A stretch of DNA of 64,000 bases from an uncultured Mollicutes bacterium. GTDB taxonomy: Bacteria > Bacillota_I > Bacilli_A > Acholeplasmatales > Anaeroplasmataceae. Below, in pieces: positions 41,842 to 64,000 of this stretch. Under the pieces are notes generated by a model. That model did no database searches, was not told the DNA's origin, and saw only the letters and a list, made by a program, of their open reading frames with translations. The position numbers and the translations under genes are program-made. The stretch's first letter is position 1, and the number at the start of each line of letters is the position of its first letter. The DNA lies in NCBI GenBank assembly GCA_947174785.1, contig CAMWKG010000002.1, positions 1 to 64,000 of the forward strand, written 5' to 3'.

Positions 41842-41868
41842 AATATGCACCTTCCTTAAATATTATTT

Positions 41869-41959: not shown

Positions 41960-41973
41960 TCCTTTAAACAATA

Positions 41974-42273: not shown

Positions 42274-42274
42274 A

Positions 42275-45056: not shown

Positions 45057-45078
45057 TCCTACCCCCTTTGGGATAGGA
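45057..45078 (-). terminator. Terminator of the rubrerythrin gene
   Basis: CCTATCCC/GGGGTAGG stem (one wobble pair) and a T tract on the minus strand, 7 nt after the stop. Confidence 0.8.
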
Positions 45079-45084
45079 AATATT

Positions 45085-45627: not shown

Positions 45628-45651
45628 ATTCTATTCCTTCTTTCTTAGCTA

Positions 45652-45680
45652 ATTATACTTCACATCAATAAAAAATACAA
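45652..45680 (-). promoter_or_regulatory. Rubrerythrin promoter
   Basis: TTGTAT (45680–45675), 17-bp spacer, TATAAT (45657–45652), 25 nt before the ATG. No clear PerR box was seen. Confidence 0.7.
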
Positions 45681-45711
45681 TCCTTCAAATATTATCTTTC
45701 TAGCAAGCAAT

Positions 45712-46293: not shown

Positions 46294-46351
46294 TGCTGTT
46301 TTCCTCCAAACCTCATAACAAAATTATTATCTCATAAATAAAATCAAAAGT

Positions 46352-47737: not shown

Positions 47738-47814
47738 AATTCTACACCTCTAGCAACAAAAAGAATTATAGCACTTCTTATATATAAGGTCAATATATCC
47801 AATACTCATAAAAA

Positions 47815-47842
47815 GAGTTGCCTATAGTCACATAGACAACTC
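47815..47842 (-). terminator. Terminator of the GH43–Nudix operon
   Basis: GAGTTGTCTAT with ATAGGCAACTC, 11 bp with one mismatch, followed by TTTTT; 10 nt past the Nudix stop. Confidence 0.8.
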
Positions 47843-47851
47843 CTTCAGTTC

Positions 47852-48406: not shown

Positions 48407-48423
48407 AGATTTCATTTCCTTTT

Positions 48424-49974
48424 CTAAAGAATTTTATAATAAACTTTACGGAAGGTTGCAGTTTTTTTACTTTCCTTAAAATCTGCACAATGTAGTCCAA
48501 AAAAGGCCCCAGTAAAGCCACCTCTTTTTACTGCCTGGTCACTAAGCTTAGTAGCATCTAAAACAGGTCCTACTGCAATATAATTCATATTATCCAATGA
48601 ATAATAGAATTGTGCTTCTTTAAAATGAACAACAATTTTTAAATAAATGTCATTTTCATATGGAATCTTTATATCTTCATATAAATTAGTTTGATATTCA
48701 TTCTGAGTCATCAATCTTAAAACTTTGCCTAACTGTTCATCATATGTGGAATACAAGAAATATAAATCTCCTTCTTGATAGCGATATACCAATCCTGCCA
48801 TATGAGAGAAAATTTCTGGTTCAAAGGATAACTGACATCCAAATTCACACTCAAAATGTTGTTGACGTCTTTGCCAAGTATTTTGTAAATAAAAAGAATC
48901 AATAGATTGTTTTCCTATAAGAGTAAGCGAAGCATTTGCTTTCATAGCATAGGGATTCATATCTACTCTAAGATTTTGAAAGTCTAAGGAAAATTGTTTT
49001 GATAAGAAATCATAACAAATCACTTTCTCTTCCTTCTCTAATTGTACTTCATCTTTTAACTCATAGTAGTCTCTAGGTTGTTTAGTAAAATCAGCTAAAT
49101 ATGGCCAGTCATCCTTCCACACAATATTTTGTAAAGCTGTTTCTCTACCTAATATACATTTGCCATCTAATGGACGACCACAAAGATGGGCAAGTAACCA
49201 ACCATTCTTTTCACTATATACTAAAGATGCATGTCCTGCTCGCTGTAAATATGCATTTGTATTCTTAGAAGTAATTAACACTCCATTCTTTTCATAAGGA
49301 CCAAAGATATGTTTAGAACGTGAAACAGTCTCAGAATGATTATATCCAGTTCCTCCTTCTGCACAAAACAAATAATAGTAATCCTCTTTTTTATAAATAT
49401 GTGGTCCTTCTACAAAACCTTCTTCTGTTCCTTTAAATACTTTATGACACTCACCTATTAGTTTTCCAGTAGATAAATCTATTTCTTGAACCAATATTCC
49501 TGTAAAACAGTTTCTGCCAGTTAATCCTCTATAGTCCCATTCCATATTAACAAAATAAGACTTACCATCTGTATCATGAAATAAAGAGGCATCAAATCCA
49601 CTTGCGTTGATAAAGATGGGGTCACTCCAAGGACCTTCAATATCTTCTGCACATATTAAATAATTATAGCAATCCTTAAAAGGTCCAGTACACCAGGTTT
49701 CCACGTTGGAAAAGACAATATAAAATTTACCATTATGATATGTTAAATCTGGTGCCCAAACTCCAGAAGATGGAGCATTATTCATCATATCTATGATTCT
49801 TTTTTCATTTAGTGGTCTTGACACTAAATGCCAGTTTGCTAAATCTTTTGATTCATATACAGATAATCCTGGAAAGGTTTCAAAGGTTGATGTTGCAATA
49901 TAATATTTTCCTTTTCCATAGCAGATACAAGGGTCTGGATTAAACCCCTTTAAAATTGGATTTTTTATTTTCAT
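48424..49974 (-). CDS. Glycoside hydrolase family 43 (β-xylosidase / α-arabinofuranosidase type)
   Basis: 516 residues. The five-bladed GH43 domain (1–310) has the catalytic trio: base Asp14 in FNPDPCI, pKa-modulating Asp128 in GFDASLF, and acid Glu189 in VEGPHIY. The C-terminal β-sandwich (about 320–516) is the GH43 C2-type domain with YRYQEGDLYFLYST. There is no signal peptide, so it acts inside the cell on imported xylo- or arabino-oligosaccharides. GGAGG precedes the ATG. Cotranscribed with the Nudix gene. Confidence 0.9.
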   Translation of the reverse strand: MKIKNPILKGFNPDPCICYGKGKYYIATSTFETFPGLSVYESKDLANWHLVSRPLNEKRIIDMMNNAPSSGVWAPDLTYHNGKFYIVFSNVETWCTGPFKDCYNYLICAEDIEGPWSDPIFINASGFDASLFHDTDGKSYFVNMEWDYRGLTGRNCFTGILVQEIDLSTGKLIGECHKVFKGTEEGFVEGPHIYKKEDYYYLFCAEGGTGYNHSETVSRSKHIFGPYEKNGVLITSKNTNAYLQRAGHASLVYSEKNGWLLAHLCGRPLDGKCILGRETALQNIVWKDDWPYLADFTKQPRDYYELKDEVQLEKEEKVICYDFLSKQFSLDFQNLRVDMNPYAMKANASLTLIGKQSIDSFYLQNTWQRRQQHFECEFGCQLSFEPEIFSHMAGLVYRYQEGDLYFLYSTYDEQLGKVLRLMTQNEYQTNLYEDIKIPYENDIYLKIVVHFKEAQFYYSLDNMNYIAVGPVLDATKLSDQAVKRGGFTGAFFGLHCADFKESKKTATFRKVYYKIL

Positions 49975-50284
49975 TATTATACCCTCCTTTAGGAGTAAAA
50001 CTATTTAAAACTTTCTTAACTCAAAAATATAAGGATACTACTGTTACAAGAAAAGTAATTACAATTAAGATGTTCTTTAATACTAGAACATTATGATGCC
50101 TTTATTTTTATAATAACATATAATTTTTCTCTACGAAATGTAATGACATCTTTATTTACACGAGCAAATACCTAATTTCTCTTTTAAGATTGAGTTTTTA
50201 ATTTATCTTTCATTGCACAATAACCCTTATTTTGATTAGAACCCACTCTTATAATTAAGTTCAAGAATTTTAAAGAACTGAGAT
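49975..50284. other. Intergenic region upstream of GH43
   Basis: No gene seen. It holds a small hairpin ATGTTCT/AGAACAT (about 50069–50092) and very AT-rich sequence. A minus-strand stretch of about 20 codons ending MKDKLKTQS-stop has no good start. It separates the housekeeping backbone from the accessory island. Confidence 0.4.
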
Positions 50285-50319
50285 AAAAAAGTAAAATTAA
50301 TAGACTCTTCTATTTTACT
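50285..50319 (-). terminator. Terminator of the eight-gene biosynthetic operon
   Basis: AGTAAAAT (50319–50312) pairs with ATTTTACT (50297–50290), with short inner pairing, followed on the minus strand by T6. It is about 135 nt beyond the deacetylase stop. Another inverted repeat ATTGCATA/TATGCAAT (50397–50436) lies between. Confidence 0.65.
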
Positions 50320-50452
50320 AGCAATCTTTAAAATAGTAATAACTATTTATGTCAAAAGAACATAAGAAAACAATTAGGTTAAATTCTATTTGAAATATTG
50401 CATATTTTAAAATATAAATAAAAACCACTATGCAATAATTATTCTGATTACG

Positions 50453-51346
50453 CTATAAAATATCGTTATAAGTTATATAATCAATTTTATTTTTTTTGCA
50501 ATATTTTTTTACCTTTTTTAAACTCTTCAATTCCTTTACTCTATCTTTATTTGAAAAAAGCGAATTATGGCATTGCTTTTTGTCGTAAAATCCTGGATGC
50601 GTCATTACTTGAATTACAGACTCTTTTCTTAAATTCTTAATTTGCTCAATAAAAACTTTAGAAGTTCTAAAGTATCCATACATGGTTCCCATATAAGCTA
50701 TTTTGTCACTATGACAATTATTTATACACAAAAAATTATATAACAACATATCATATTTAAAATAGTAATTAAAATTATTTTTTATAACGTCAAAATTAAT
50801 TGAATCTCTTCTATAGTCCTTAAAGTTATTTCTTTTAGCCATTCTCTTCCTTTCAAAAAAATCTAGTTTTTCAAATGGTATTCTCAAATGAATTTGATGC
50901 TTGAACGCACATTTTTCAAAAATATCATTTACTCTACGATTGAAAATATTACAATGATTATGTCCATCCATATGGTTAGGCAAAAAGCTAAACATCTCAT
51001 TAAACTTTTTAAATTGTGCAATCACCTCTTCCTCTATATAACGAATATTAATAGTATCGCAAATAGCGTTTGCCCAAAAATTATATTTTGAACGATTAAA
51101 AGAATAACTTCGATTACAAAAATCTTCAGTTTGGTATTTAATTAATGGATTATCAGTAAGATTGATATGCAACCCAACGCTTACTTTTTTTTTCATTTCT
51201 TTTATTAAACTTATTTGCTCTCTATTTAAGTGGTTGGTAACTATTACACTTACACTTGAAATATATCCTCTTCTTACTGCTTCAGCGATACCCCTATCCC
51301 TATCTATATCTATACCAAAATCATCAGCGTTTAAAATTATTTTCAT
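50453..51346 (-). CDS. YdjC/ChbG-family carbohydrate deacetylase
   Basis: 297 residues. MKIILNADDFGID gives the metal-binding Asp pair, VGLHINLT a conserved histidine block, PNHMDGHNHC the two histidine ligands, and QVMTHPGFYD the last conserved site. YdjC/ChbG enzymes remove N-acetyl groups from amino sugars such as chitooligosaccharides. Last gene of the leftward operon, 9 nt after the P-loop kinase gene. In this setting it probably deacetylates an N-acetylated sugar intermediate made by the operon; that is inference. Confidence 0.82.
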   Translation of the reverse strand: MKIILNADDFGIDIDRDRGIAEAVRRGYISSVSVIVTNHLNREQISLIKEMKKKVSVGLHINLTDNPLIKYQTEDFCNRSYSFNRSKYNFWANAICDTINIRYIEEEVIAQFKKFNEMFSFLPNHMDGHNHCNIFNRRVNDIFEKCAFKHQIHLRIPFEKLDFFERKRMAKRNNFKDYRRDSINFDVIKNNFNYYFKYDMLLYNFLCINNCHSDKIAYMGTMYGYFRTSKVFIEQIKNLRKESVIQVMTHPGFYDKKQCHNSLFSNKDRVKELKSLKKVKKYCKKNKIDYITYNDIL

Positions 51347-51355
51347 ATGATTCCT

Positions 51356-51955
51356 TTACAATACCTTTAATAATCTTGAAATTTCATCATTTACTTCTGC
51401 TATGCATTTGCTACCATCTACAAAAAACACTTTCACATCATTTTCATAGTTTTCTATAAATTTTTTCTTATATTCTTCGCAAATTTGCATATATTTTTTA
51501 TCTATCCAAACACTATTAACAACCTCTTCACTTCGCTGATTTACTCTTGATTCTAATAGATCCATAGGTGCCTCTATAAAAATATAAGCATCTGGTTTTA
51601 GAAGAGTTTTGTTTATACTTTCATGATACCATGCAAGTACTTTTAAATAGGGTTCAAAATCATTATTAAAAATCCCCATAGCGTATGTATGTGCAAGTGT
51701 TGACAGATAATATCGTTCAAACAAAACAATTTTTTTTGGAGAATCTTTAAATATTATGGTCTTTAATTTTTCTAAAAGAAGAAAATAATCAGTGTTAGAA
51801 AAATCTATAAAATTAGTTTTTCTGACATTCTCTAAAAGCTTGCCAATCTTTATATTTATACCATCAACATCATTTCTTTTATTTAAAATAATATTTATAT
51901 TTGTGCTTTTGCCTGCACCAGAACTCCCCTCTAGTACTACTAATTTTTTATTCAT
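51356..51955 (-). CDS. Thymidylate-kinase-like P-loop kinase
   Basis: 199 residues. P-loop EGSSGAGKST (9–18), FERYYLSTLAHTYAMG resembles the DR(Y/F) substrate block of thymidylate kinases, and PDAYIFIEAPMDLLESRVNQR the LID region. The fold is that of dNMP kinases, but conserved dTMP-specific residues are not clear and the operon context suggests a small-molecule kinase. Overlaps the radical SAM–methyltransferase gene by 8 nt. Confidence 0.72.
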   Translation of the reverse strand: MNKKLVVLEGSSGAGKSTNINIILNKRNDVDGINIKIGKLLENVRKTNFIDFSNTDYFLLLEKLKTIIFKDSPKKIVLFERYYLSTLAHTYAMGIFNNDFEPYLKVLAWYHESINKTLLKPDAYIFIEAPMDLLESRVNQRSEEVVNSVWIDKKYMQICEEYKKKFIENYENDVKVFFVDGSKCIAEVNDEISRLLKVL

Positions 51956-53849
51956 CTTTTTTTCTTTCTCTCTTTTTATATAGTCCTTTAATGCCTAAGC
52001 TTTCAAATCTTTTTTCAAAGAATTTCTTGTATTTTTCTGTTTTGGCTATAAGTATAGTTTCCTCAAGGTGCTCAGCACCTATATATATCTCATCACCTGG
52101 ATTCATTGTTGACGTGTACAAATATCCATCATTATTTAGGCTTTCATAAAAATAATCAAGTATATATAGAGGATGTCTAGTATGTTCTAATACGTCTCTA
52201 CAAAACACAAAATCCACCTTTTTTCTTAATAATTCAACCTTCATATTTTCACCAATTCTATAATTTTCCACCTTAATACTTCTATTCTTAAATCTTTCTA
52301 ATGCAAAATCAAAAGTTAATATATCTAAGTCAAGGATAACTACACTATACCCCATTTTTGCAAACAGCAAAGAAAAATCTCCTACACAACATCCATAATC
52401 CATTACCCTTGCCCCCTGCTTTAGATTTTCTTTCATAAAATCAAATATGTGTAATTGTGATTCGAATTTTTCTGGACGGCCAAGAAGTTGCCTTAAAGCA
52501 TAAAACTCGGAAGCGTTTTTATAACTATTGAAAATTTGCTTGTCATTTTCCATGTTTTTAAAAAAGATTGGATACAAGAAATTAAGCTTGTATTCTAAAG
52601 ACTCTATTGCATACCTTTCATTTATTTTTTTAATGAATTCTTTATCTCTTTTGAAAAAAGATAAATATTCCTCTGTTCTTTCTGTTATGTACTCTTTTTT
52701 ATCATCTATCATTATCATTTTTTCTATTTTTTGAGTGGTAAAATTGTCAACCCTGCATTCTCTTTCTATCTCGTCATCATTAAATACAAGCACATAACTC
52801 ATATTCATAGGACATTCCCTACAAAAATCTAACTTATTTTTTCTAAACTCATTCCACTTATCAGAATTCCAAAGTTGTTTAATATTCATTTCATTAATAT
52901 TGCCAATAATTTTATCACGATTATATTCCACAGCATTACAAGGAAGCACCATTCCATCTCCTTCAATAATCATAAATGTACTGGGTATGTCGCATTTATT
53001 TTTTATTCTATTGTCTGGCCAATAAAGTCCATTTTCAAAATTTTCGATAGAATTAAAGTTTATATTATACATATCTAAAAGTTGCTTATTATTAAAAGTT
53101 TTCAAATTATCATTTATTTCAAGACCATTAATTTTATTCACGAGTTTAGGAACATAATTTTTTTTAAAATCTAATATTTCTTGTCCATTTAATAAAAAAA
53201 ATTTATTTTCACTATCTGCTTCTATCATATCAATACTTAACGAATCAGCATGAAGACTAATTGCCAAATCTATCATTGTGCATATGTTTTTATAATTATG
53301 CTTAGATAATACCATCCTTAAGTTTAATTTAAATGGAATTCCACTTTCTTTTGCTTCTTTTATGTTTCTAGTTGCTCTATTAAATAATCCTGGAAGCTTT
53401 CTTAATTCATCATGTTTGTCTGCAAAAGGGGAATCTATTGACAAATTAAGACACATCACACCTGCATCCATAAGTTCTTTAAACTTGCCTAATGTCAAAA
53501 ACCATCCATTTGTATTTATGGATGCTCTCATTCCGTTTTTTGTAACCAGTTTAATAAGTGGAATAACATCTTTATATATTAATGGTTCTCCCCCACTTAT
53601 ACATATTTGTTTTGTCCCTAACTCTTTTAATTGCTTTAAGAGTCTGTCATAATCACCCAAACTCAATTGAAAGTCAGTCGAAAATCTTTTACTTCTTGGC
53701 ATACAATGCTTACAATTTGCACAACACTTCAGTGTAGGCTTTAATACCACAAGCCAAGGCTCTTCTCCTAATTGATAAAAAGATCCCTCTTCTTTATATT
53801 TTCTTGTATAATCTGTATAAAAATATTTTGACTTAAACGTTAATTTCAT
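51948..53849 (-). CDS. Radical SAM / SPASM protein fused to a methyltransferase domain
   Basis: 633 residues. Radical SAM cluster cysteines are C42, C46 and C49 in LKCCANCKHCMP, with ISGGEPLIYKD as the SAM-contact GGE motif. A SPASM-like auxiliary cluster region (IIEGDGMVLPCNAVEYN ... CRECPMN) lies at about 315–370. From about 475 a class I methyltransferase follows (ARVMDYGCCVGDFSLLFAKM, then FVFCRDVLEHTRHPL). SPASM enzymes modify peptides or sugars; the fused methyltransferase suggests sequential radical chemistry and methylation of one substrate. No product can be named. Follows the glycosyltransferase by 3 nt. Confidence 0.82.
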   Translation of the reverse strand: MKLTFKSKYFYTDYTRKYKEEGSFYQLGEEPWLVVLKPTLKCCANCKHCMPRSKRFSTDFQLSLGDYDRLLKQLKELGTKQICISGGEPLIYKDVIPLIKLVTKNGMRASINTNGWFLTLGKFKELMDAGVMCLNLSIDSPFADKHDELRKLPGLFNRATRNIKEAKESGIPFKLNLRMVLSKHNYKNICTMIDLAISLHADSLSIDMIEADSENKFFLLNGQEILDFKKNYVPKLVNKINGLEINDNLKTFNNKQLLDMYNINFNSIENFENGLYWPDNRIKNKCDIPSTFMIIEGDGMVLPCNAVEYNRDKIIGNINEMNIKQLWNSDKWNEFRKNKLDFCRECPMNMSYVLVFNDDEIERECRVDNFTTQKIEKMIMIDDKKEYITERTEEYLSFFKRDKEFIKKINERYAIESLEYKLNFLYPIFFKNMENDKQIFNSYKNASEFYALRQLLGRPEKFESQLHIFDFMKENLKQGARVMDYGCCVGDFSLLFAKMGYSVVILDLDILTFDFALERFKNRSIKVENYRIGENMKVELLRKKVDFVFCRDVLEHTRHPLYILDYFYESLNNDGYLYTSTMNPGDEIYIGAEHLEETILIAKTEKYKKFFEKRFESLGIKGLYKKRERKKDE

Positions 53850-53852
53850 TTT

Positions 53853-54947
53853 CTATTCCTTTTTAAATTCTTCTATTTTTTTAATTAAATAATTTAATGT
53901 ATCTTTTTTTTCTATAAGCTCTGTGCTTTTGGCAATATTATATGAATATAAATTTAATTTCAGTAAGAAATTTTTTAGATTTGTGATTGTAATTTTGTCA
54001 GCTGCATAACCTAAATCGTTTTCTAAAATAATTTTTGCACAATAGTGCTGATCAAAGGTTGGAAGTGGTAAAACAAATACTGGTTTGCCAAGATAAAAGG
54101 ACTCTGAAATAAGCGTGTGTCCCGCTGTGCTAATGACCCCTTTTGCTTCCAATAATTCCTCTATAAATTTCTCTCTCTCATTCTTATATATTTTTATATT
54201 TTTTCCTATATTCATTTTTTCACCATACAATTCTGTTGAGAAAATTACAAATTCAAAATTATTAATATTTTCAAATATGTTTATTACTTCTACATATGTT
54301 TGTCTTATTGGAATATCAATGAATTTGGAAAAATACACGATTATTTTGTTTTTTGTCTTTATTTGTAGTTGTTTATTCCTTATATCCTCTGCAATAATAG
54401 GATACAAAACTTCAACATTTTGAGGCAAATTAATATTTTTAAGGTTATAAAACGAGACAATATATTTATTATTATATTTCGGGAAAAATAAGTTTAATCT
54501 TTTTTTCTCTTCTACGCAAGAAAAACCATGAATAATTTCTTTGTCCATATATATAAATTTGCTTTGTTGATCAATATTCAACAATGGTTTTTTCAACTTA
54601 TAAGAAATTTTTGCAACAATAGGCTCATAATCGCTAATACATACATCAGGAATAAATCCTTCTTTGAAAAGAGATCTCATAACTTTTCTGTTTTTTATTA
54701 ATCCAGGTATAAAAACACAAAAATTACGTCTCAAACAATTGAAAATATCAAGCTTGTCCCCTTTATACAACACCAAAGGAACAAAAACCTTATAAAATTT
54801 AATGTCAGTTTTTTCAAAAAAATTAATTCCTTCTAAATAAGTCAATACACGTACCTCATGCCCTCTATTTATTAGAGCTTTGCAAATCTCATATTGTCTT
54901 ATACAATGTCCCTTTCCTATTCCACAAACACCTATTAATATTTTCAT
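53853..54947 (-). CDS. GT-B glycosyltransferase (MGT/MurG-like)
   Basis: About 364 residues. MKILIGVCGIGKGHCIRQYE has the Gly-rich acceptor-side loop and histidine of MurG/MGT-type enzymes, and HTLISESFYLGKPVFVLPLPTFDQHYCA is the nucleotide-sugar binding block. ATG at 54947 is 1 nt past the epimerase stop; longer readings overlap that gene. It should transfer a sugar, plausibly the uronic acid made by the two preceding enzymes, onto a small acceptor. No membrane segment seen. Confidence 0.78.
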   Translation of the reverse strand: MKILIGVCGIGKGHCIRQYEICKALINRGHEVRVLTYLEGINFFEKTDIKFYKVFVPLVLYKGDKLDIFNCLRRNFCVFIPGLIKNRKVMRSLFKEGFIPDVCISDYEPIVAKISYKLKKPLLNIDQQSKFIYMDKEIIHGFSCVEEKKRLNLFFPKYNNKYIVSFYNLKNINLPQNVEVLYPIIAEDIRNKQLQIKTKNKIIVYFSKFIDIPIRQTYVEVINIFENINNFEFVIFSTELYGEKMNIGKNIKIYKNEREKFIEELLEAKGVISTAGHTLISESFYLGKPVFVLPLPTFDQHYCAKIILENDLGYAADKITITNLKNFLLKLNLYSYNIAKSTELIEKKDTLNYLIKKIEEFKKE

Positions 54948-54948
54948 A

Positions 54949-55932
54949 CTACAACTCATCTTTACATAATTTTTCTTTATACCATGACACCGTTTTTTCA
55001 AGTCCCTCTTTAAGCATTACTCGTGGCTTATATCCAAGTACTTCTTCTGTCCTCTCAATGTCTGCTAAAGAATTTTTTATATCTCCTCTTCTTGATTCTT
55101 CGTATTTGATTTTAGTTTTTTTATTCAAAATTGCACTAATATGGTTGTAAAGTTCTTTTATAGATGTTGACCTACCACAGGCAACATTGAAAACTTTTCC
55201 CCACGCCATTTTTCTAGAAAAGCAAGCTTTTATATTTGCATCAACTACATTCGATACATATGTAAAATCCCGACTTTGAATGCCATTACCATATATCGTA
55301 ATACTATTTTGTTCTAAAATTGCTTTTACAAATTTAGGTATAACTGCCGCATAGACCGAATGTGAATCTTGTTTAGGTCCAAAAACATTAAAATACCTAA
55401 GACCAACTGTATTTAGCCCATACACAAAATAATAAAGCTTAGCAAGATCTTCGTCAGTTTTTTTGCTGAGGGCATATGGTGATAATAAATCACCTTCCTG
55501 ACCAACTTTTTTAATTTTATTTTTGTCATCACCATACACAGACGCACTTGATGCATAAACAAATGTTTTAATTTTATTCACGAAAGATGCTTGCAACATG
55601 TTATGCATACCCAAAATATTATTTTTTGTATATTGTAGTGGCTCTTCAATTGATTTTGGTATCGATCCCCACGCTGCTTCATGCATAACATAGTCTATTC
55701 CTGTTGTCACTTTCAAGCATATACTGTAGTCACAAATATCACCTTTAATAAACTCAAATTTTTTGTGATGTAAAAACTCCTCTATATTTTCTATTCTTCC
55801 GTTAGTAAGGTTATCTATTCCTCTTACATTATAACCTCTTTCAAGGCATTCTTTTGCTATATGTGAGCCAATGAAACCAGCAACTCCAGTAATTAATACT
55901 CTTATCTTTTCTTTTATTTCTATAGGTTCCAT
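54949..55932 (-). CDS. NAD-dependent sugar epimerase (UDP-GlcNAc/GlcNAcA 4-epimerase, WbpP/TviC-like)
   Basis: 327 residues of extended SDR fold. The NAD motif is GVAGFIGSH (16–24), the catalytic Ser lies in YASSASVYG and the Tyr153/Lys157 pair in SPYALSKK; the C-terminal RRGDIKNSLADI is typical of 4-epimerases. HEAAWGSIPKSIEEP recalls the WbpP/TviC group that acts on N-acetylated UDP-hexoses. It overlaps the upstream dehydrogenase by 13 nt. Together they would give UDP-GalNAcA from UDP-GlcNAc; sugar specificity is inferred. Confidence 0.85.
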   Translation of the reverse strand: MEPIEIKEKIRVLITGVAGFIGSHIAKECLERGYNVRGIDNLTNGRIENIEEFLHHKKFEFIKGDICDYSICLKVTTGIDYVMHEAAWGSIPKSIEEPLQYTKNNILGMHNMLQASFVNKIKTFVYASSASVYGDDKNKIKKVGQEGDLLSPYALSKKTDEDLAKLYYFVYGLNTVGLRYFNVFGPKQDSHSVYAAVIPKFVKAILEQNSITIYGNGIQSRDFTYVSNVVDANIKACFSRKMAWGKVFNVACGRSTSIKELYNHISAILNKKTKIKYEESRRGDIKNSLADIERTEEVLGYKPRVMLKEGLEKTVSWYKEKLCKDEL

Positions 55933-57197
55933 ACTATAAATCCCTCTTTTTTTAATTTTTCTTTATTAAAAATAGAGTATAGGTCAAAGATAATTTTGAT
56001 ATTGCTATTTAAAAACAAGTCATTCAAATCAATAATTTCCAAATTGTAATACCGTTTATGCTTACAAGCAAATACTACAACATCAACTTTGGGTACAAAA
56101 AAAGATAAAGACAACCCCTGAGATTCCTCTAATTCATTGTTATTTACATTATAATCTTCAAGATACACTTCAGCACCTTTTCTTATTAGTTCTTTTGCTA
56201 TATCTATTGACCTTGAATTTCTTATATCTGTGACATTTTCTTTAAAAGTTAATCCTTTAATTAAAATTTTAGATGACATTATTTCTTTGCCCATCTTTTG
56301 TAAATTATCAATTATGTTATATACAACATATTCGCTCATAGAATTATTTATTTTTCTAGATGTTAAAATTAGTTCTGGATTGTATCCTAATTCTTGTACT
56401 TTGTAAGACAAATAATATGGGTCTATCCCAATACAATGTCCTCCAACCAATCCCGGATGAAAGTCCAAAAAATTCCACTTAGTTTTTGCCGCTTGAAGTA
56501 CTTCGTTTGTATTTATGTTCATAACACGAAAAATTTTTGATATTTCATTCATAAAGGCAATATTAATATCTCTTTGAGTATTTTCCATTACCTTTGCTGC
56601 TTCAGCCACTTTTAAAGAAGACACTTGTATTATTTTTCCCGAGATACATTTTTGATATAATCTTGCAATTTTTTTTCTCGTCTCAATAGTAGAACCAGAT
56701 ACTATTTTGTTTATACTTTGAAAAGTATGCACTTTATCTCCTGGATTTATTCTTTCTGGAGAATAGCCTACAAAAAAATCTTTATTAAATGTGAGTCCAG
56801 ATACCTCTTCTAAAATAGGTACACATACTTCTTCAGTAGCTCCTGGATAAACTGTAGATTCATAAATTACTATCACTCCATAATGCAAATTTCTCCCCAC
56901 AGCTTGACTTGCTGCTATAATACAATTCAAGTCAGGTTCATTATTGATATTCACGGGAGTTGGAACAGTAATAATAATATAATCTGCACTTTTTATTATC
57001 TTTTCATCAAAAGAGAATTTAATATTAGTTTTCTTTAATATATCATTCCCCACTTCCCCTGTTATATCTATCCCATTCTTATAATCTTCTATCTTCTTTT
57101 GATTTGTATCAAATCCAAATACTTCATAGCATCTACTAAAAGCTACAGCTATTGGTAATCCAACATATCCAAGCCCTACTACCACTACTTTTTTCAT
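55920..57197 (-). CDS. UDP-sugar 6-dehydrogenase (WbpO/TviB/WbpA-like)
   Basis: About 425 residues. NAD motif GLGYVGLP (8–15), three-domain UDP-glucose/UDP-GlcNAc dehydrogenase architecture, catalytic Cys255 in GLVGGHCIGIDPYYL. FHPGLVGGHCIGIDPYYLS is the form found in dehydrogenases for N-acetyl-hexosamines (UDP-HexNAcA) rather than plain UDP-glucose. It oxidises C6 to a carboxylate with two NAD+. ATG at 57197 overlaps the radical SAM stop (ATGA). Confidence 0.88.
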   Translation of the reverse strand: MKKVVVVGLGYVGLPIAVAFSRCYEVFGFDTNQKKIEDYKNGIDITGEVGNDILKKTNIKFSFDEKIIKSADYIIITVPTPVNINNEPDLNCIIAASQAVGRNLHYGVIVIYESTVYPGATEEVCVPILEEVSGLTFNKDFFVGYSPERINPGDKVHTFQSINKIVSGSTIETRKKIARLYQKCISGKIIQVSSLKVAEAAKVMENTQRDINIAFMNEISKIFRVMNINTNEVLQAAKTKWNFLDFHPGLVGGHCIGIDPYYLSYKVQELGYNPELILTSRKINNSMSEYVVYNIIDNLQKMGKEIMSSKILIKGLTFKENVTDIRNSRSIDIAKELIRKGAEVYLEDYNVNNNELEESQGLSLSFFVPKVDVVVFACKHKRYYNLEIIDLNDLFLNSNIKIIFDLYSIFNKEKLKKEGFIVWNL

Positions 57198-58189
57198 AAC
57201 TTTAAACCTCCTTCTTTTATATAAACAATAGGACAAACTAGGCATCTATTTTCCTCTACATTTCTATTTAATATAGGACAACAATCCTTCCACTTTTGCT
57301 TTGATATTTTTTTTGCCAAATCATCTATCATAGATACAATTTTTTCCTTAGTGTCTTCCAATATATTTCCTATACAAAAACTCTTATTTTTTAATACAAG
57401 GCCACATAAATATAAATCACCATTGGAATCCATATGTGGGTCAGCAAGTTTATTAATATAATCTTCTTTGCTATATTTTCCCATTGGACAACTAGTAAAA
57501 AATCTTTTGTCACTCTTATATCTATTATCAATACTTGAATATTCTACACTTATATTTAGATATGATTTCTTTAGGTAAGCGGGTAGCTTTGCAATTAATC
57601 TTTCACAATTTAAATTTTCACTACACAAATATCTATTGTCATTTCCTCTCCCCACTGGTGTTATCATATATATCCTTACCATTTTAGGTTTAATCTGATT
57701 ATCGTACAATAACTTAATTAATACTTCTAACATTTCTTGGTTTTTAGAAGAAATTGGAAAAGTAATTTTAAACTCGAATCCAGCATCTGTCATTTTTTTA
57801 AATACATCTATCACATTATTGAAATACTTATCATATAATTTTTGAGGTAACCCAAGTATATCATTTGTATATAAACTTATACTCAAAGAATTTACATTTT
57901 TCATCAAAAAATTTATTTTTATATCATTTAAAAGCCATGCATTAGTCAAAAAGCCGACTTCTAACCCCAGCTTTTTTACTCTTGTTATATAATCAAAAAT
58001 AGACGGATCCAATAATGGTTCACCACCACTAAAAGTAATCTTTTTCACTCCTAAATCTTTTAATTTATCTATTGCTAATAATTTTTCTTCATAACTCATT
58101 TCATTTTCACTTAATTCTCCCGCTCTTACAAAGCAATGTTTACACTTAAAATTACATCCATTTGTCACCAAAAAAGTTACTTTGTACAT
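57194..58189 (-). CDS. Radical SAM protein with a SPASM-like C-terminus
   Basis: 331 residues. C12, C16 and C19 in GCNFKCKHCFVR bind the [4Fe-4S] cluster; FSGGEPLLDPSIF is the GGE motif. The C-terminal third has further cysteines (FTSCPMG, LYLCGLV, SFCIG, KDCCPILN, CLVCPI), suggesting auxiliary clusters as in SPASM or Twitch enzymes that modify peptides or aminoglycoside-like molecules. Its ATG lies in the last codons of the asparagine-synthetase-like gene (13-nt overlap). Confidence 0.85.
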   Translation of the reverse strand: MYKVTFLVTNGCNFKCKHCFVRAGELSENEMSYEEKLLAIDKLKDLGVKKITFSGGEPLLDPSIFDYITRVKKLGLEVGFLTNAWLLNDIKINFLMKNVNSLSISLYTNDILGLPQKLYDKYFNNVIDVFKKMTDAGFEFKITFPISSKNQEMLEVLIKLLYDNQIKPKMVRIYMITPVGRGNDNRYLCSENLNCERLIAKLPAYLKKSYLNISVEYSSIDNRYKSDKRFFTSCPMGKYSKEDYINKLADPHMDSNGDLYLCGLVLKNKSFCIGNILEDTKEKIVSMIDDLAKKISKQKWKDCCPILNRNVEENRCLVCPIVYIKEGGLKL

Positions 58190-59658
58190 CTTTTCTCCCT
58201 CTCAAACATAAATTCTCTTAATTTTCTATCTTTTAGAGTGTCATCCTTACATGCATTTTGTACAAACATCCACTCAAATAATTCCAAATATAATATTTTC
58301 ATAAAATAATCAATTCCATAATACTCATCGTCAAACTTTATTCCTTTATAAAAACGACTTTTCTTACAGAAGGTTTTCACCATATCAAATGACACGTCTC
58401 CAACAAACAAGGCTTTTAATTCAGTAGCACCACCAATTTTTTTCAGTTTAGCAGTAACTTCTTTTGGCAAGATTGAATTTACTACTTTTTTATGATATTT
58501 TTTAGTTTTATCTCCTCTTTTTGACACTTGTTTAGCTAATGTCATAAATGTTCTAGTTAGATAAGGATATCTACCATTTATTCCATAATAATTTAACATA
58601 ATACCATTCTTCTTCAAGACTTTGTAGGACGCCATCTCATAAACATCTTTATATGGTTTATATTGAATATTATATAATATTTTTTTAAATCCTTTTTTAA
58701 AATTATATAATATTTTTTTAATTTTTGCATATATAGGATGATATAATTCGTAATCAAATACTTGATCAGCACACTCACCTAATAATATATCGTTTACACC
58801 TTCTTTTTTTATGAGATTGGCAAGTTCAAATTGCAAAAATATCCCTGATTCATAAATTGCTCCCTCCAAAGCCCAGACAATTTCAGGATAACAATCAAAA
58901 GTATTTCCATTCACATATGCGTTATAAAAATTTATTCCATCATAGACAGCACAAATTTCTTGTGCTGTAGATATCTCATTTCGCCCAACAACACCACCTA
59001 TACAAAATGTTTTTAATCTTTTTTCATTCTGCTTATTTAATATATACAAAATGTAATTAGAATCGTACCCTGAGGAGATGGTACAAGCTAAATCATCATT
59101 TAAGCAAGATTTACAAGATTGTACAAAAACATTATTATAGTGTTTAATTGACACATTTCCCTTTTGAGGATATGTGGATACTTTATTATATTTTAGTTTT
59201 ACTTTGAAGGACGACAAATATAATTCTAAATATCTATTACTAGGCACTTTAAATATGTTCTTTATTAAGGTCTTTTTACTTGGTAAAAATCCTTTCTTAA
59301 TAAATATTTTGACCCCCTTAACATCAAAAGATAATTCTTTATTTAACTCTTTAATTATTCTTTTCAAGGAATTCGATAACAGCAATTTATTTTTATCAAT
59401 ATAAAAATAAATACTATTACTAAAGCCTAAAAAGTCTTGGAACACAAACAACCTATTTATATTTGCATCGATTATAACAATAGTATATATACCGTCTAAA
59501 TACTCACATAGTTTTTTTCCATATTCACTATAAAGCGAAATAATATTCAGTTCATCCAACTTTTTCAAGTTTTTATCTCTTACATCCCCCAAAATATATA
59601 CCGATACACCCGTGCTAAGTTGTTTTCTATTGAGTTTAACAAACAAACTTTCTCTCAT
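58177..59658 (-). CDS. Asparagine-synthetase-like amidotransferase without the glutaminase cysteine
   Basis: About 493 residues. The N-terminal region keeps the GATase2 fold (SEYGKKLCEYLDGIYTIVII, VFQDFLGFSNSIYFY) but the protein begins MRESLF, so the Cys2 nucleophile needed to hydrolyse glutamine is missing. The synthetase half has a PP-loop, ISSGYDSN (about 194–201), instead of SGGxDS, and later DILLGECADQVFDYE. Loss of the cysteine is seen in β-lactam synthetases and lasso peptide cyclases, which join a carboxylate to an amine. It probably makes an amide bond in the product of this operon. ATG at 59658 with AGGAT upstream. First gene of the operon. Confidence 0.8.
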   Translation of the reverse strand: MRESLFVKLNRKQLSTGVSVYILGDVRDKNLKKLDELNIISLYSEYGKKLCEYLDGIYTIVIIDANINRLFVFQDFLGFSNSIYFYIDKNKLLLSNSLKRIIKELNKELSFDVKGVKIFIKKGFLPSKKTLIKNIFKVPSNRYLELYLSSFKVKLKYNKVSTYPQKGNVSIKHYNNVFVQSCKSCLNDDLACTISSGYDSNYILYILNKQNEKRLKTFCIGGVVGRNEISTAQEICAVYDGINFYNAYVNGNTFDCYPEIVWALEGAIYESGIFLQFELANLIKKEGVNDILLGECADQVFDYELYHPIYAKIKKILYNFKKGFKKILYNIQYKPYKDVYEMASYKVLKKNGIMLNYYGINGRYPYLTRTFMTLAKQVSKRGDKTKKYHKKVVNSILPKEVTAKLKKIGGATELKALFVGDVSFDMVKTFCKKSRFYKGIKFDDEYYGIDYFMKILYLELFEWMFVQNACKDDTLKDRKLREFMFEREKRCTK

Positions 59659-59776
59659 TATTCTATCCTTTTTAATCCTCTCAACAAACATAATATTACT
59701 ATTGTATTTATTATTTTATATATAAATTACTACTAAGAAGTAAAACTATTTTTACAGATCTATATCTAATATTTTT

Positions 59777-59859
59777 AAAAACAACAGGTACTAATTAGGT
59801 TTTCTTTAATCGAAAAATTCAACACAATTCTAATCAACATATTCATTAAATTCCTGTTG
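59777..59859 (-). promoter_or_regulatory. Possible attenuator hairpin in the biosynthetic operon leader
   Basis: CAACAGG (59859–59853) pairs with CCTGTTG (59788–59782), with weaker inner pairing (TGATTAG with CTAATTA), and is followed on the minus strand by TTTTT. It is about 120 nt before the first gene, in a leader that starts near 59912. A short reading frame overlaps the left arm. Conditional termination is possible. Confidence 0.35.
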
Positions 59860-59877
59860 ACACTTCCTTATAAACAC
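59830..59877 (-). CDS. Possible 15-residue leader peptide
   Basis: GTG at 59877 with GAGGTGG about 8 nt upstream, reading MFIRKCQQEFNEYVD then TAG. It lies between the operon promoter and the hairpin, in the position of an attenuation leader peptide. It could equally be a fragment of a decayed gene; no codon run specific for one amino acid is seen. Confidence 0.25.
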   Translation of the reverse strand: MFIRKCQQEFNEYVD

Positions 59878-59918
59878 TATATTATCCACCTCGTTGTTAT
59901 TATAGAAAGTCCAAATAA

Positions 59919-59927
59919 ATTATACCA
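59919..59927 (-). promoter_or_regulatory. Extended −10 element upstream of the biosynthetic operon
   Basis: TGGTATAAT (59927–59919) on the minus strand, about 260 nt upstream of the first gene; no good −35. The same nonamer occurs upstream of the DUF4062 gene. Confidence 0.45.
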
Positions 59928-59985
59928 TAAAAAAGAAAATCTGGTATGCTTTTGGCAGATAATTAAAACAATTTATTTTTTATTG

Positions 59986-60266
59986 CTATTTTGATTGGAA
60001 AAATTTATAATGAATTCTTTTACGATGTCCATACTCATCAATAGCATATCCCCAGAATTCACATTTACAATTTACTTTAGAAATAATGATATAGTCAATA
60101 TCATCTAGAATATTAGAGGCTTGATTTGACATATCAAATACTAAGTAATTAAGCTTAGTGATTTTTTTGCCATTGCTTAAATTTCTTTAATTTCATGTTC
60201 TTTCGAAAGAATCTTTTGAGTTATTTCACTAGTTTTTAAGTTAGAGACTTCTTTTGCTATTGATCT
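59986..60266 (-). pseudogene. Decayed gene, frameshifted
   Basis: Two open stretches on the minus strand in different frames. The first runs from 60266 and contains SIAKEVSNLKTSEITQKIL up to a TAA near 60180; the second continues to the TAG at 59986 with LSNGKKITKLNYLVFDMSN and ends CEFWGYAIDEYGHRKRIHY. Neither has a start codon with a ribosome site. Protein-like composition and the junction suggest one gene broken by a frameshift. Family not recognised. Confidence 0.4.
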
Positions 60267-60375
60267 TCATTATCTATTCAGTAGAACGAGGTTGAAGTCT
60301 TTTATCTATTTCGCTATATCAAAACGAAATTGATTGTATTAATCCAAAAACAGATGGGAATAAAGAATTTTATTT

Positions 60376-60438
60376 TTATTTTCTAAGTTCTAGTAATGTG
60401 ATTGCCTCAACACTATACTCCCATGTTGCAATTAAAAT
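60376..60438 (-). pseudogene. C-terminal fragment similar to the gene at the right edge
   Basis: Twenty codons after an in-frame stop, reading ILIATWEYSVEAITLLELRK then TAA. The block TWEYSVEAI matches TSEYSVEVI at the end of the partial gene at 63968, and the DNA match covers about 20 bases. It appears to be the tail of a lost paralogue. Confidence 0.4.
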
Positions 60439-60471
60439 CTACAAAACTACTATAATTACAGATTTTAATTG
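60429..60471. repeat. 12-bp perfect inverted repeat after the DUF4062 gene
   Basis: CAATTAAAATCT (60429–60440) and AGATTTTAATTG (60460–60471), loop 19 nt. It starts 4 nt past the DUF4062 stop and may act as its terminator, although the T run lies on the plus side. Confidence 0.55.
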
Positions 60472-60475
60472 TTTT

Positions 60476-61963
60476 TCATTTTCTTTCTATTTTTCCCTTT
60501 ATCTCATGTCCAAAGCTTTTAGATGTTATTACATATTCTATCTTATCTGGTATATTCTTAAACATTAGTTGAGCACACAAAAATCGTGAAGTGAATTGCT
60601 TTAAACCGGTAGTAATATCAAATTTTATAATTACATTATCACCTTTAATGTTAACAATAAATGAATAAAGTTCTTTTCTCTTAATATCAAACCATTCTTG
60701 ATAATTTTCTAAATATGGTTCTTTTTCTATTAAAGAATTCAATTTAGAAAATGTTTTAGAAGTGATTGATTTATTTTTTTCCATATTCTCTACATCTACA
60801 TCATCTTTTTTTTCAAAGAAACTTAAAAAATCTTTAACATCATCTGCTATAATTTGATTACTTATTTCCAGTTTTCCAATATCAAAATAATGTTTTTTGT
60901 CAAAAATTAATTTTATAGTAATATCTTCAGCATAGATATTACTCTCATTTTTTATAACAAAAGATGCAAAATACAAATTATCAAACTGGTTAAAAAATGA
61001 AACCGATGCATTATATTTATAGATTTTATTTTTTAATTTTATCAATTTATTTGCTTTTTCTTCTGCTTCTTGTGAATTTAGTTTATATTCCTCTCCAAAA
61101 AAAGAATTCTTATTATACTCAAAATCACCTATATTAATAAAATCTTCATCAATGGATATCCCATTAGATATAGAAAATTCTGTTGCAATTGTTAATATTG
61201 TTTGCAATATTTCATTTAGAGGCTTTGAACCTGATGGTAATTTGATTGAAAATTTAGAAAATTCCAAAAAAAGATAATCATTCCGAGATTTACGAGGCAA
61301 TTCAATCTCATTAATAGCATTAATATCATTTATTATTTCCTTCTTTAAACCATTCACATTTTTCAATTCAAAAAAATCATAACGAGAACATTTCAGATAT
61401 GGAAACAATTCTCCACTTTTATAGCAATATACTGATAAATCCTTTTCTGTTTTGTGCTTTAATTTAAATGCTAAACCATTTAAATGTTCCTTTAACTTTT
61501 CTTTTAAATCCCTTTTATTTTTAAATTCACTGTATAATCCTGCAAATTCACTTTTAAATTTTTTTACTTTACTTAATTGTTCAGGATCAATTGCAGTAAT
61601 TGAAAAACCTTTACCTGTATAAAAATATGTCATAACTTCATGACCTTGATTATATGAACGTTCTATTTCTTCCAATGTTCCCGATTCAAAGTTTTCTGTT
61701 GGAGAACCAAATTTTGTACCAAATAACGCAATCACTGCATCAGCAAAATCAACAAGCTGCTCATTAATTATATCTTGAGCTGGTTTTCCATATGCTGGAA
61801 TACTATTATGTTTCCAATCTAAAGGTTTAAACATTATATTTTTATCATAACCAATCTCATTGTTATATTCTAAAATGGCTTCTCTAACTACTTTTGAATA
61901 TTCCATCATATCACTAGGTGATGAAATTAGGATATTAAAATTTCTTACTACTCTTTCTTTCAT
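60476..61963 (-). CDS. DUF4062 domain protein, candidate defence effector or sensor
   Basis: About 495 residues. The N-terminal domain (about 8–120) begins FNILISSPSDMMEYSKVVREAI and continues with DFADAVIALFGTKFGSPT and SGTLEEIERSYNQGHEVMTYF, the DUF4062 pattern, a fold related to TIR/nucleoside-processing domains often fused to STAND NTPases. No NTPase follows; the rest (about 125–495) is α-helical then β-rich and unassigned. ATG at 61963 has GGGAGTGA 5 nt upstream. An extended −10 (TGGTATAAT, 62126–62118) lies about 155 nt upstream. A role in phage defence is inferred from domain company and neighbours. Confidence 0.6.
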   Translation of the reverse strand: MKERVVRNFNILISSPSDMMEYSKVVREAILEYNNEIGYDKNIMFKPLDWKHNSIPAYGKPAQDIINEQLVDFADAVIALFGTKFGSPTENFESGTLEEIERSYNQGHEVMTYFYTGKGFSITAIDPEQLSKVKKFKSEFAGLYSEFKNKRDLKEKLKEHLNGLAFKLKHKTEKDLSVYCYKSGELFPYLKCSRYDFFELKNVNGLKKEIINDINAINEIELPRKSRNDYLFLEFSKFSIKLPSGSKPLNEILQTILTIATEFSISNGISIDEDFINIGDFEYNKNSFFGEEYKLNSQEAEEKANKLIKLKNKIYKYNASVSFFNQFDNLYFASFVIKNESNIYAEDITIKLIFDKKHYFDIGKLEISNQIIADDVKDFLSFFEKKDDVDVENMEKNKSITSKTFSKLNSLIEKEPYLENYQEWFDIKRKELYSFIVNIKGDNVIIKFDITTGLKQFTSRFLCAQLMFKNIPDKIEYVITSKSFGHEIKGKIERK

Positions 61964-62338
61964 TTTATTCACTCCCTATCGCAAAAACATAGTTTCTTTA
62001 CTTTATACTTATTCTAGTCGTCCCAAATTATCTTAAAATTTATTTTTTAGAATAATCAAATGTTTGTAATTATTCTTCACAGTCAAACGTATGAAGATAT
62101 TATATTAATACATATCAATTATACCATTTTTCTACAAACAAAAAAAGACCAACCTAGTATTCCATAATTTGATCTTGTGTCAATAAATTTAAATATCAAC
62201 AGCATATATAATATCTTTCTGGCTCACTTCGATTAGGGAAGAACTTCTATTTATGGTTTCTTCTGTATGTTTCAAATATATCAATCATAATAAACATTCT
62301 ACTTCTATCTCTGCTCGTCAAGAACTGAATGTCATTAA
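61964..62338. other. Intergenic region between DUF4062 and RES genes
   Basis: Contains the DUF4062 promoter element (62118–62126). On the minus strand at 62196–62297 there is one frame MFIMIDIFETYRRNHK, TAG, then KFFPNRSEPERYYICC, stop: a likely gene remnant with a nonsense codon. No other structure was seen. Confidence 0.35.
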
Positions 62339-63733
62339 TCAATCCTCATAAAAAAACTTTAATTTCTTATCTGCATTTAATGCTGCTTCACAATCTTCTA
62401 TATTTTTAAAATTATGAAGATAAAGTGGCCTTGTTAAAACAAATGCAGTCCCCAATAAACTGCAATATTTTTTCTCTTCTGTAAAACGCAATCCACTAGT
62501 AGGAAAAACATAATTAAATCCCAAATCTGAAGATCTTTCGGAATAACAAGAAAAATATCTTAATCCTAAAAATTTATCTTCACTTCTATTATGTTTTCTT
62601 AACCACTGCATTAACAACTGAGGGATAATGTATTCTGGAGCAAATGGATCTTTTCTATGAGCTCTTATAAATGAACAAGATGCAATCAAAGGATACCAAA
62701 CAAGATAATTTTTTCTTACACTAGTATTATTTATCCATTTATTTAAATTCTTAATTCTTGCATTTTCTTCTAAAGTATTATCTCTCGCTTCTTCTTCGCT
62801 AGAAAAATCTTGTGGTTTTATCCCAAGCTCAAGAACATTAATTTTCATTTCTCTACGATTATGATTTTTGCACACTTCAAACCTCGAACAAATAGAATAC
62901 TTTTCATAAGGATTATTATGCATTTCTTCCAAACATAATTCTACAGATGTTCCAAGGTAAAGGCTAGGAAATCCTGCTATACTATATCTATTTGTAGATA
63001 CTTTTGAACTTAAATTATAAGGTGGGTGGAAAATTCTTTCCCTTAGATGAGTAACATTTTCCTCTACTGATACTGCCCTATAAAGTTTTAAGGAAGATGT
63101 ATCATAAAATTCTCCCAGCCAAGTTGATTTTTGATACTGACCTAGACTCTCATTGATAATGTTAGTCATCAGCACATCTATTCTATCATATGCATCAGAT
63201 GGAAAACCTCTTAAATAGTCAGTAACAGCTTGCTGAATTAGTGAACATGACATTGCTATTTTAAAATAAATATGTAAAAATTGCTCCAAATTATTTCTTT
63301 GCGAATTATTAACTTCATTAGAATATTTTTCTATTATCATATCGCAATAATATGCAATTGATTCTTTGCAAAGTCTAGCCATTCGCTCATCTTCTTCTGA
63401 AAAATGTCTCTGTCGACGCGGATCTTGAAATTTCTTTCTATACTCATCATAAAATCTATCCATTCGTTCATTAGCTCGAGCATAAGCCTTTCTTTTAGCT
63501 TTTAAAATAGCCTCACAATGACGTTCCATATTTATTGCACAATCATGTTTTATATTATTAATAGTATTAGAATCATTTAAATTAAATAAAACATCAAATG
63601 CATTATTTTGATATTTATTAAACAATTCACCTAATGCTTGCTCAAAATCCTTTCCGTCCCAACGCTTCGGCAAAAAAAACGATGTCTCATTAAAAATTTC
63701 TTTGAATTCCCTATCTCCTAAATTTACTATCAT
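62339..63733 (-). CDS. RES-domain protein, probable NAD-consuming toxin or effector
   Basis: About 464 residues. A helical N-terminal part (about 1–205, with KAKRKAYARANERMDRFYDE and a cysteine/histidine-containing core) precedes a RES-like domain (about 215–400). There the family residues are visible: Arg in LYRAVS, Tyr and Glu in SLYLGTSVELCLEEM, and Ser in LIASCSF. RES proteins such as MbcT and Res degrade NAD+ and are usually neutralised by Xre-type antitoxins; none is adjacent. ATG at 63733 follows AGGAGG. Unlike small RES toxins, this one is long, so its N-terminal half may be the regulatory or sensor part. Confidence 0.62.
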   Translation of the reverse strand: MIVNLGDREFKEIFNETSFFLPKRWDGKDFEQALGELFNKYQNNAFDVLFNLNDSNTINNIKHDCAINMERHCEAILKAKRKAYARANERMDRFYDEYRKKFQDPRRQRHFSEEDERMARLCKESIAYYCDMIIEKYSNEVNNSQRNNLEQFLHIYFKIAMSCSLIQQAVTDYLRGFPSDAYDRIDVLMTNIINESLGQYQKSTWLGEFYDTSSLKLYRAVSVEENVTHLRERIFHPPYNLSSKVSTNRYSIAGFPSLYLGTSVELCLEEMHNNPYEKYSICSRFEVCKNHNRREMKINVLELGIKPQDFSSEEEARDNTLEENARIKNLNKWINNTSVRKNYLVWYPLIASCSFIRAHRKDPFAPEYIIPQLLMQWLRKHNRSEDKFLGLRYFSCYSERSSDLGFNYVFPTSGLRFTEEKKYCSLLGTAFVLTRPLYLHNFKNIEDCEAALNADKKLKFFYED

Positions 63734-63769
63734 AGTGCCTCCTATATATTTCATTCTATTATCATTTTG

Positions 63770-63778
63770 ATTATAGCA
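63770..63778 (-). promoter_or_regulatory. Extended −10 of the RES gene
   Basis: TGCTATAAT (63778–63770) on the minus strand, 37 nt before the ATG; direct repeats lie just upstream of it. Confidence 0.5.
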
Positions 63779-63796
63779 TAAAATCTTTGGAAAAAC

Positions 63797-63828
63797 GACA
63801 AAATTCGCCAGACAAATTTCGACAAAGG
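63797..63828. repeat. Direct repeats upstream of the RES gene
   Basis: GACAAAATTCG (63797–63807), GACAAATTTCG (63811–63821) and a partial third GACAAAGG (63821–63828). They sit around the −35 position of the RES promoter and may be operator half-sites. Confidence 0.45.
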
Positions 63829-63879
63829 AATTTATTTAAGTTTACTTTGCGCTACTTTTTAATAGATTTGCAAATTAAA

Positions 63880-63917
63880 AAATGCTTATAAATACTTTTG
63901 TGTGTAAATAAGCATTT
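63880..63917 (-). terminator. Terminator of the gene at the right edge
   Basis: AAATGCTTAT/ATAAGCATTT, a 10-bp perfect stem with an 18-nt loop and a T tract on the minus strand; about 50 nt past the stop of the edge gene. Confidence 0.7.
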
Positions 63918-63967
63918 TATCTTGATATATTTTATTTATCTTTCGTATTTTCTGCTCTTATCAAACT

Positions 63968-64000
63968 TTAAATTACTTCAACACTATACTCCGATGTTTG
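63968..64000 (-). CDS. C-terminus of an unidentified gene cut by the window edge
   Basis: Ten codons ending SEYSVEVI then TAA, reading in from beyond the window. The similarity of this end to the fragment at 60376–60438, and the terminator that follows, argue for a real gene. Family unknown. Confidence 0.35.
   Translation of the reverse strand, partial: QTSEYSVEVI

Follow-up and report, generated by a model that had tools for sequence, protein, structure and literature searches.

An island-borne eight-gene operon combining UDP-sugar, amide synthetase and radical SAM genes in an uncultured Mollicutes bacterium

Gene content and boundaries of the operon

We analysed the first 64,000 nucleotides of contig C2 (CAMWKG010000002.1) of a draft genome from an uncultured Mollicutes bacterium, a stretch referred to here as the window, and in particular an operon of eight consecutive genes on its minus strand at 50453-59658. 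The open reading frame (ORF) listing and re-translation bear out the eight same-strand genes described in a sequence-only reading of this DNA, and every ORF is open and intact. That reading had put neighbouring genes at overlaps or gaps of under 10 nt, which is almost exact; the gaps are 1-9 nt, while the overlaps run from 4 to 13 nt. The best Pfam E value for each protein spans 1e-9 to 1e-54.

In the direction of transcription, the operon begins with an Asn-synthase-like amide synthetase of 493 amino acids (58177..59658; Pfam Asn_synthase, 3.3e-20, and alignment with AsnB proteins), followed by a radical S-adenosylmethionine (SAM) protein of 331 amino acids, rSAM1 (57194..58189; Pfam Radical_SAM, 3.1e-21). 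The third and fourth genes encode a TviB/WbpO-like uridine diphosphate (UDP)-N-acetylhexosamine 6-dehydrogenase (55920..57197) and a WbgU/WbpP/TviC-like UDP-N-acetylhexosamine(uronic acid) 4-epimerase (54949..55932). Next come a glycosyltransferase of the MJ1255/VC2487 family (53853..54947; PF13528, 1.8e-35) and a 633-amino-acid fusion of a radical SAM/SPASM protein to a methyltransferase (51948..53849). A thymidylate/deoxynucleoside-kinase-like P-loop kinase (51356..51955) and a YdjC/ChbG/HpnK-like carbohydrate deacetylase (50453..51346; Pfam YdjC, 1.6e-37) complete the set. No clear transmembrane segment was found in any of the eight proteins, and no exporter is present in the operon.

The boundary signals proposed earlier fared less well. 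A terminator placed at 50285-50319 was not found by the scan, and the fold of 50270-50345 was no better than that of shuffled sequences (z -0.47). The promoter-like element at 59919 does contain an extended -10 by eye (TGGTATAAT); it is not among the sites listed by the scanner, and the count of promoter-like sites across the region equals the shuffle mean. Upstream of the operon by approximately 330 bp lies a minus-strand ORF of 48 amino acids (59986-60132), for which no ribosome-binding site could be seen; it is probably the remnant of a gene. A DUF4062 protein is encoded just upstream of the operon at 60476-61972 and matches the PADLOC candidate PDC-S60 at 3.4e-25.

Sugar supply by the dehydrogenase and epimerase

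The dehydrogenase is the sole full nucleotide-sugar dehydrogenase match in the whole host genome. TviB is its best model (416 bits), although the score stays below the equivalog cutoff of 592; the NDP-sugDHase subfamily model gives 384 bits, above its cutoff. The best solved relative is Cap5O, and the catalytic Cys of the segment GGHCIGIDPYY aligns to the GGHC of Cap5O. For the epimerase, phmmer searches against the PDB returned WbgU (5e-73) and WbpP (2e-67), both UDP-GlcNAc 4-epimerases, as the best solved relatives, while its equivalog score is 242 bits against a cutoff of 760. The motif SPYALSKK supplies the YxxxK of the epimerase, and the small Ser in GDIKNSLAD is shared with WbgU and WbpP (GD[VI]..S segment); we take this Ser to be the gatekeeper that sets N-acetyl acceptance.

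These results support the supply of a UDP-N-acetylhexosaminuronic acid (UDP-HexNAcA) that had been proposed for this gene pair. The two enzymes form the standard module for UDP-N-acetylgalactosaminuronic acid (UDP-GalNAcA), which is the best-founded part of the scheme developed below. They resemble the TviB/TviC and WbpO/WbpP modules in their adjacency, their catalytic motifs and the shared Ser, and differ from them in scoring below the equivalog cutoffs and in having no accompanying flippase or polymerase. Plasmids of Providencia and Parabacteroides also carry this pair as neighbours within polysaccharide loci.

Tailoring enzymes

The six remaining proteins are distant and unassigned within their families. 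Alignment of the synthetase with 12 ordinary AsnB proteins supports the earlier description of a cysteine-less amide synthetase: Cys2 and the N-terminal glutaminase motifs are absent, and the Pfam GATase_7 match begins only at profile position 57. SSGYDS, GECADQ and the C-terminal Lys (KKIGG) are retained in register with the 12 AsnB proteins, and ATP-dependent activation of a carboxylate should still be possible. Since the glutaminase active site is lost, it is predicted to take no ammonia from glutamine. Like asparagine synthetase B and its cysteine-less relatives of the beta-lactam synthetase type, it has the ATP-pyrophosphatase synthetase domain and the conserved motifs; it is shorter than asparagine synthetase B, lacks the glutaminase active site and has no close relative in the class sample described below. 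Membership of the glutamine-hydrolysing asparagine synthetases was rejected, as the N-terminal Cys and a complete glutaminase domain are absent, and the asn_synth model gives 110 bits against a cutoff of 267.

Both radical SAM proteins carry CxxxCxxC and SGGEP and are canonical by motif, in support of the two radical SAM enzymes of the sequence-only reading. In rSAM1 these are CNFKCKHC and SGGEP, with a C-terminal Cys set of the reduced SPASM/twitch type; its scores fall far below all NCBIfam equivalog cutoffs. The fusion protein belongs to the SPASM subfamily (PF04055 and PF13186), with Pfam matches to Radical_SAM (2e-22) and SPASM (1.7e-13) over residues 38-347 and to Methyltransf_23 (3.8e-12); its C-terminal class I methyltransferase occupies residues ~470-595 (Pfam 470-586). 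As the methyltransferase is part of this protein, methylation has no gene to itself, a detail absent from the sequence-only reading, as is the kinase-like identity of the seventh gene. Among solved structures, the fusion protein comes closest to BlsE (5e-19, radical SAM core) and BtrN (SPASM part), both of which act on carbohydrates, but its scores come nowhere near any family cutoff. The two radical SAM proteins share 30% identity over 139 residues and so do not represent a recent duplication.

The glycosyltransferase scores 126 bits against the MJ1255 model. Its family rises above the Pfam cutoff in only three of 390 class genomes, this one and, barely, two others, and passes it in the named controls, two methanogens and one Bacteroides. 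AlphaFold2 run without an alignment gave no usable model of either the synthetase or the glycosyltransferase (predicted local distance difference test 34-35). The kinase-like protein has the motifs GSSGAGKST and FERYYLS and matches Thymidylate_kin (1.1e-9) and dNK (1.3e-8) in Pfam, with 48 bits against a cutoff of 83 for the dTMP kinase model. The assignment of the last gene as a YdjC deacetylase is supported by metal ligands that are in place (NADDFG, GLHINLT, HMDGHNH and MTHPG), and its best solved relative is a chitooligosaccharide deacetylase (2e-13).

A variable island in an integration hotspot

The sister genome G009 is collinear with the window at 89.7% over 42052-49974, a segment that includes adhE, rubrerythrin, MATE, NUDIX and GH43 genes. 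The match ends at the start of the GH43 gene (49974), with unrelated DNA beyond, and rumA on the far side is conserved. The operon therefore lies in a variable AT-rich block of approximately 27 kb (contig C2 ~49975-77150; 49975..64000 in the window) that is flanked by GH43 and rumA, both of them conserved, and is missing from the sister genome. GC content at codon positions 1, 2 and 3 is lower here than in core genes (0.358, 0.263 and 0.214 versus 0.447, 0.329 and 0.237). The operon is island-borne and probably horizontally acquired, a point absent from the sequence-only reading. The block junctions are those of the draft assembly.

The adhE-rumA interval (C2 42275-78580, covering 42275-49974 in the window and 18223-19581 in the neighbouring locus L007) is an integration hotspot. 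It measures approximately 110 bp in G008, 1.6 kb in G003, 21 kb in G004 and 32 kb here, and the inserts of the sister genomes hold different cargo. The block encodes a large serine integrase (L007 6252-8237) that is 52.8% identical to one in the insert of G009 itself. Beside it in the block are anti-phage genes for a bSEFIR protein (L007 5104-6174), a Dam-type DNA adenine methyltransferase (L007 11209-12063), a PbeC-like ATPase (L007 12503-14602), a PbeA-like helicase (L007 14755-16818) and a DUF1016/PDC-S02 nuclease (L007 17050-18093). In G009 and G004, rumA is split near its 3' end by inserts, at a CTCTC common to both (L060 4548 and 14502-14594; L062 130-244 and 18219). This resembles streptococcal integrative and conjugative elements, whose serine integrases are known to target rumA (PMC4701971). 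That the present block sits inside the rumA attachment site was considered and rejected, as rumA is uninterrupted here at the point where it is split in two sister genomes.

Search for a second copy

The sequence-only reading had proposed comparing the gene order across Bacilli. The genome samples used for this, of relatives, class and phylum, overlap and all lie within the phylum of the host. Searches with the fusion protein covered 100 relatives, 395 genomes sampled from the class and 392 from the phylum, and matched only its radical SAM/SPASM part. The glycosyltransferase had no full-length homologue in 392 sampled genomes, and synthetase and kinase searches of 296 genomes returned only ordinary AsnB-sized proteins. 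Full-length homologues of the fusion protein, the glycosyltransferase and the synthetase, which we consider diagnostic, were thus found in none of the sampled genomes of the genus, family, order, class and phylum.

No second copy of the operon was found in genome contigs, viral contigs, plasmids, phages or the sampled whole genomes, and gene-order conservation was accordingly not observed. One genome-contig match (L003) and three class matches (L004-L006) were rejected as second copies on the grounds that they cover the radical SAM part only. The plasmid matches examined were likewise rejected, being ordinary asnB genes, stand-alone radical SAM genes, an aminoglycoside-like cluster and polysaccharide loci. 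Literature searches turned up no published cluster of this composition. The components belong to individually known families, and their combination was not found elsewhere in this analysis.

A short contig of another genome (G422 contig C36, locus L015) carries the end of an epimerase gene, a glycosyltransferase gene and two tandem radical SAM genes. It too is an unassigned radical SAM-glycan gene group, possibly on a stray contig.

A proposed pathway and its alternatives

The probable product of the operon is an unusual amino-sugar acid that bears an amide and whose synthesis includes two radical steps. In the scheme that we propose, the dehydrogenase would oxidise UDP-GlcNAc at C6 to UDP-GlcNAcA, which the epimerase would convert at C4 to UDP-GalNAcA. 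The MJ1255-family transferase would place the sugar on an acceptor that the kinase-like protein may have phosphorylated, and the YdjC enzyme would then strip the N-acetyl group. The synthetase may activate a carboxylate with ATP and join it to free ammonia or some other amine. Remodelling of the sugar or the acceptor may fall to the two radical SAM proteins, and the fused methyltransferase domain would methylate the product. What the sequence itself shows are the families, the conserved catalytic motifs, the missing glutaminase half, the operon layout, the position on an island and the rarity; the substrates, the order of steps and the product, and with them all reactions past UDP-HexNAcA supply, we infer.

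Two characterized systems offer the closest working analogies, and the operon belongs to neither. HpnI, HpnK and HpnJ act in turn on one N-acetylhexosamine (HexNAc), by transfer, YdjC-family deacetylation and radical SAM remodelling (PMC12583986), on the way to bacteriohopanetetrol cyclitol ether. The operon is alike in outline, with a transferase, a YdjC deacetylase and radical SAM proteins, but the latter are of the SPASM type and uronic-acid, amide and methyl steps are added; the YdjC protein reaches only 54.1 bits against the HpnK model TIGR03473 (cutoff 232.6), and membership was rejected accordingly. BlsE, a radical SAM enzyme of the blasticidin S pathway, works on a uronic-acid nucleoside or glycoside made from UDP-glucuronic acid (PMC3715490). 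It shares with the operon the setting of radical SAM chemistry beside UDP-uronic-acid chemistry and comes first among the solved relatives of the fusion protein, whereas the operon genes are of HexNAc rather than glucuronic acid type. Membership as a BlsE cytosylglucuronate decarboxylase was rejected at 78.7 bits versus a cutoff of 400 (TIGR04466).

Because of the eight-gene layout, the UDP-HexNAcA pair, the kept synthetase motifs, the lack of membrane segments and of an exporter, the HpnI/HpnK/HpnJ and BlsE precedents and the record of radical SAM genes next to glycosyltransferases and epimerases in Brachyspira (PMC4267127), we tentatively favour a pathway that was acquired horizontally, runs entirely in the cytosol and makes a single modified hexosaminuronic-acid glycoconjugate, small or lipid-like, while regarding it as somewhat short of an even chance. 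Several observations weigh against it. The lack of a second gene set means that conservation gives the eight genes no support as one pathway, and with no co-occurrence found elsewhere the case for their unity comes from the layout. The sequence-only reading had itself named lack of co-occurrence in other genomes as evidence against its view, and the sampled genomes do not overcome that objection. In their matches to BlsE, AhbD, NirJ2 and PqqE the radical SAM proteins fall far short of the family cutoffs, so their reactions are not readable. The scheme gives the kinase-like protein no clear role. MurG-like transferases, moreover, often use lipid-linked acceptors that then need a flippase.

In the main rival, the operon tailors a surface glycan in trans: an amidated or methylated GalNAcA-type donor or lipid-linked unit would be flipped and polymerised by a separate polysaccharide locus elsewhere in the genome. 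We consider this possible but on balance unlikely. A profile search placed the single PF02397 initiating sugar transferase of the genome on contig C12, where ORFs at 24000-43500 (L042) resemble by eye a flippase, a polymerase, glycosyltransferases, UDP-galactopyranose mutase and deoxythymidine diphosphate (dTDP)-sugar genes. The host thus has such a locus and no other full sugar dehydrogenase, and TviB/TviC-type genes usually occur in polysaccharide loci. Radical SAM genes also stand among glycan genes in the L015 group and in a rhamnose/glycosylation block on a Brachyspira hyodysenteriae plasmid, beside a glycosyltransferase and an NAD-dependent epimerase (PMC4267127). The genes of that block are rhamnose-type, and uronic-acid, amide-synthetase and YdjC genes were not seen in the portion consulted. 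In contrast, the operon is found on another contig and inside a variable block, with one glycosyltransferase and no membrane protein, and the C12 locus has no visible need of its products. A Wzx/Wzy capsule or O-antigen locus within the operon itself was rejected, given the lack of a membrane segment and of an initiating transferase and flanking genes that are not Wzx/Wzy. The sequence-only reading had taken the missing flippase, polymerase and exporter as an argument against a capsule. None of them is indeed in the operon, but the argument against a surface-glycan role is weakened by the separate C12 locus in the same genome.

A peptidyl-nucleoside-like product made in the manner of blasticidin, with a uronic acid on a base or nucleoside, a nucleotide kinase, radical SAM decarboxylation and amide coupling, is decidedly less probable. 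It would give the nucleotide-kinase-like gene a place, and it draws on BlsE as the best solved relative of the radical SAM domain, with a substrate that derives from UDP-glucuronic acid (PMC3715490). The BlsE model nevertheless scores not only far under its cutoff but also below AhbD and NirJ2, the dehydrogenase and epimerase indicate HexNAc and not glucose, and no resistance or export gene is present.

We give little credence to a ribosomally synthesised and post-translationally modified peptide (RiPP) pathway, in which a small peptide would be modified by the SPASM proteins before its glycosylation and amidation. SPASM-domain proteins commonly act on peptides, there are weak matches to several peptide-maturase models, and the synthetase weakly matches a lasso-peptide cyclase; the operon has no peptide recognition domain, protease or exporter, and the only small ORF nearby is the doubtful one of 48 amino acids. 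RiPP membership was considered and rejected. Least probable of all is a defence or nucleotide-modifying system with a logic like that of prokaryotic viperins with kinases: rSAM1 matches PADLOC viperin profiles (4e-24), the kinase matches VakA (8e-7) and the neighbours include bSEFIR, PbeA/PbeC and DNA methyltransferase genes, but rSAM1 reaches 72.2 bits against an NCBIfam viperin cutoff of 180, scores higher with NirJ2 and has a C-terminal Cys set. Viperin systems are not known to include uronic-acid, amide-synthetase or deacetylase genes, and viperin (pVip) membership was rejected.

Returning to the cytosolic glycoconjugate pathway, if the scheme is true then UDP-HexNAcA supply, glutamine-independent amide synthesis and two radical SAM steps, rarely seen in one operon, are joined here in a bacterium whose sampled relatives lack the set, and variable, defence-rich integration hotspots can also carry small-molecule pathways. 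A bolder version, which we regard as doubtful, is that the product is an amide-bearing, radically rearranged, methylated hexosaminuronic-acid conjugate of a new natural-product class, made by genes carried on a mobile island and with a possible role in competition or in defence against phages. If the operon instead performs ordinary glycan tailoring, its value would be limited to that of a further unassigned sugar pathway. As all eight proteins are predicted to be soluble, direct expression and testing are feasible.

Other features of the window

Outside the operon and its island, the window encodes a 1284-amino-acid M60 (enhancin-like) peptidase with an F5/8 type C domain at 37996-41850. A T-box leader at 29797-30007 lies upstream of a threonyl-tRNA synthetase gene (27408-29306).

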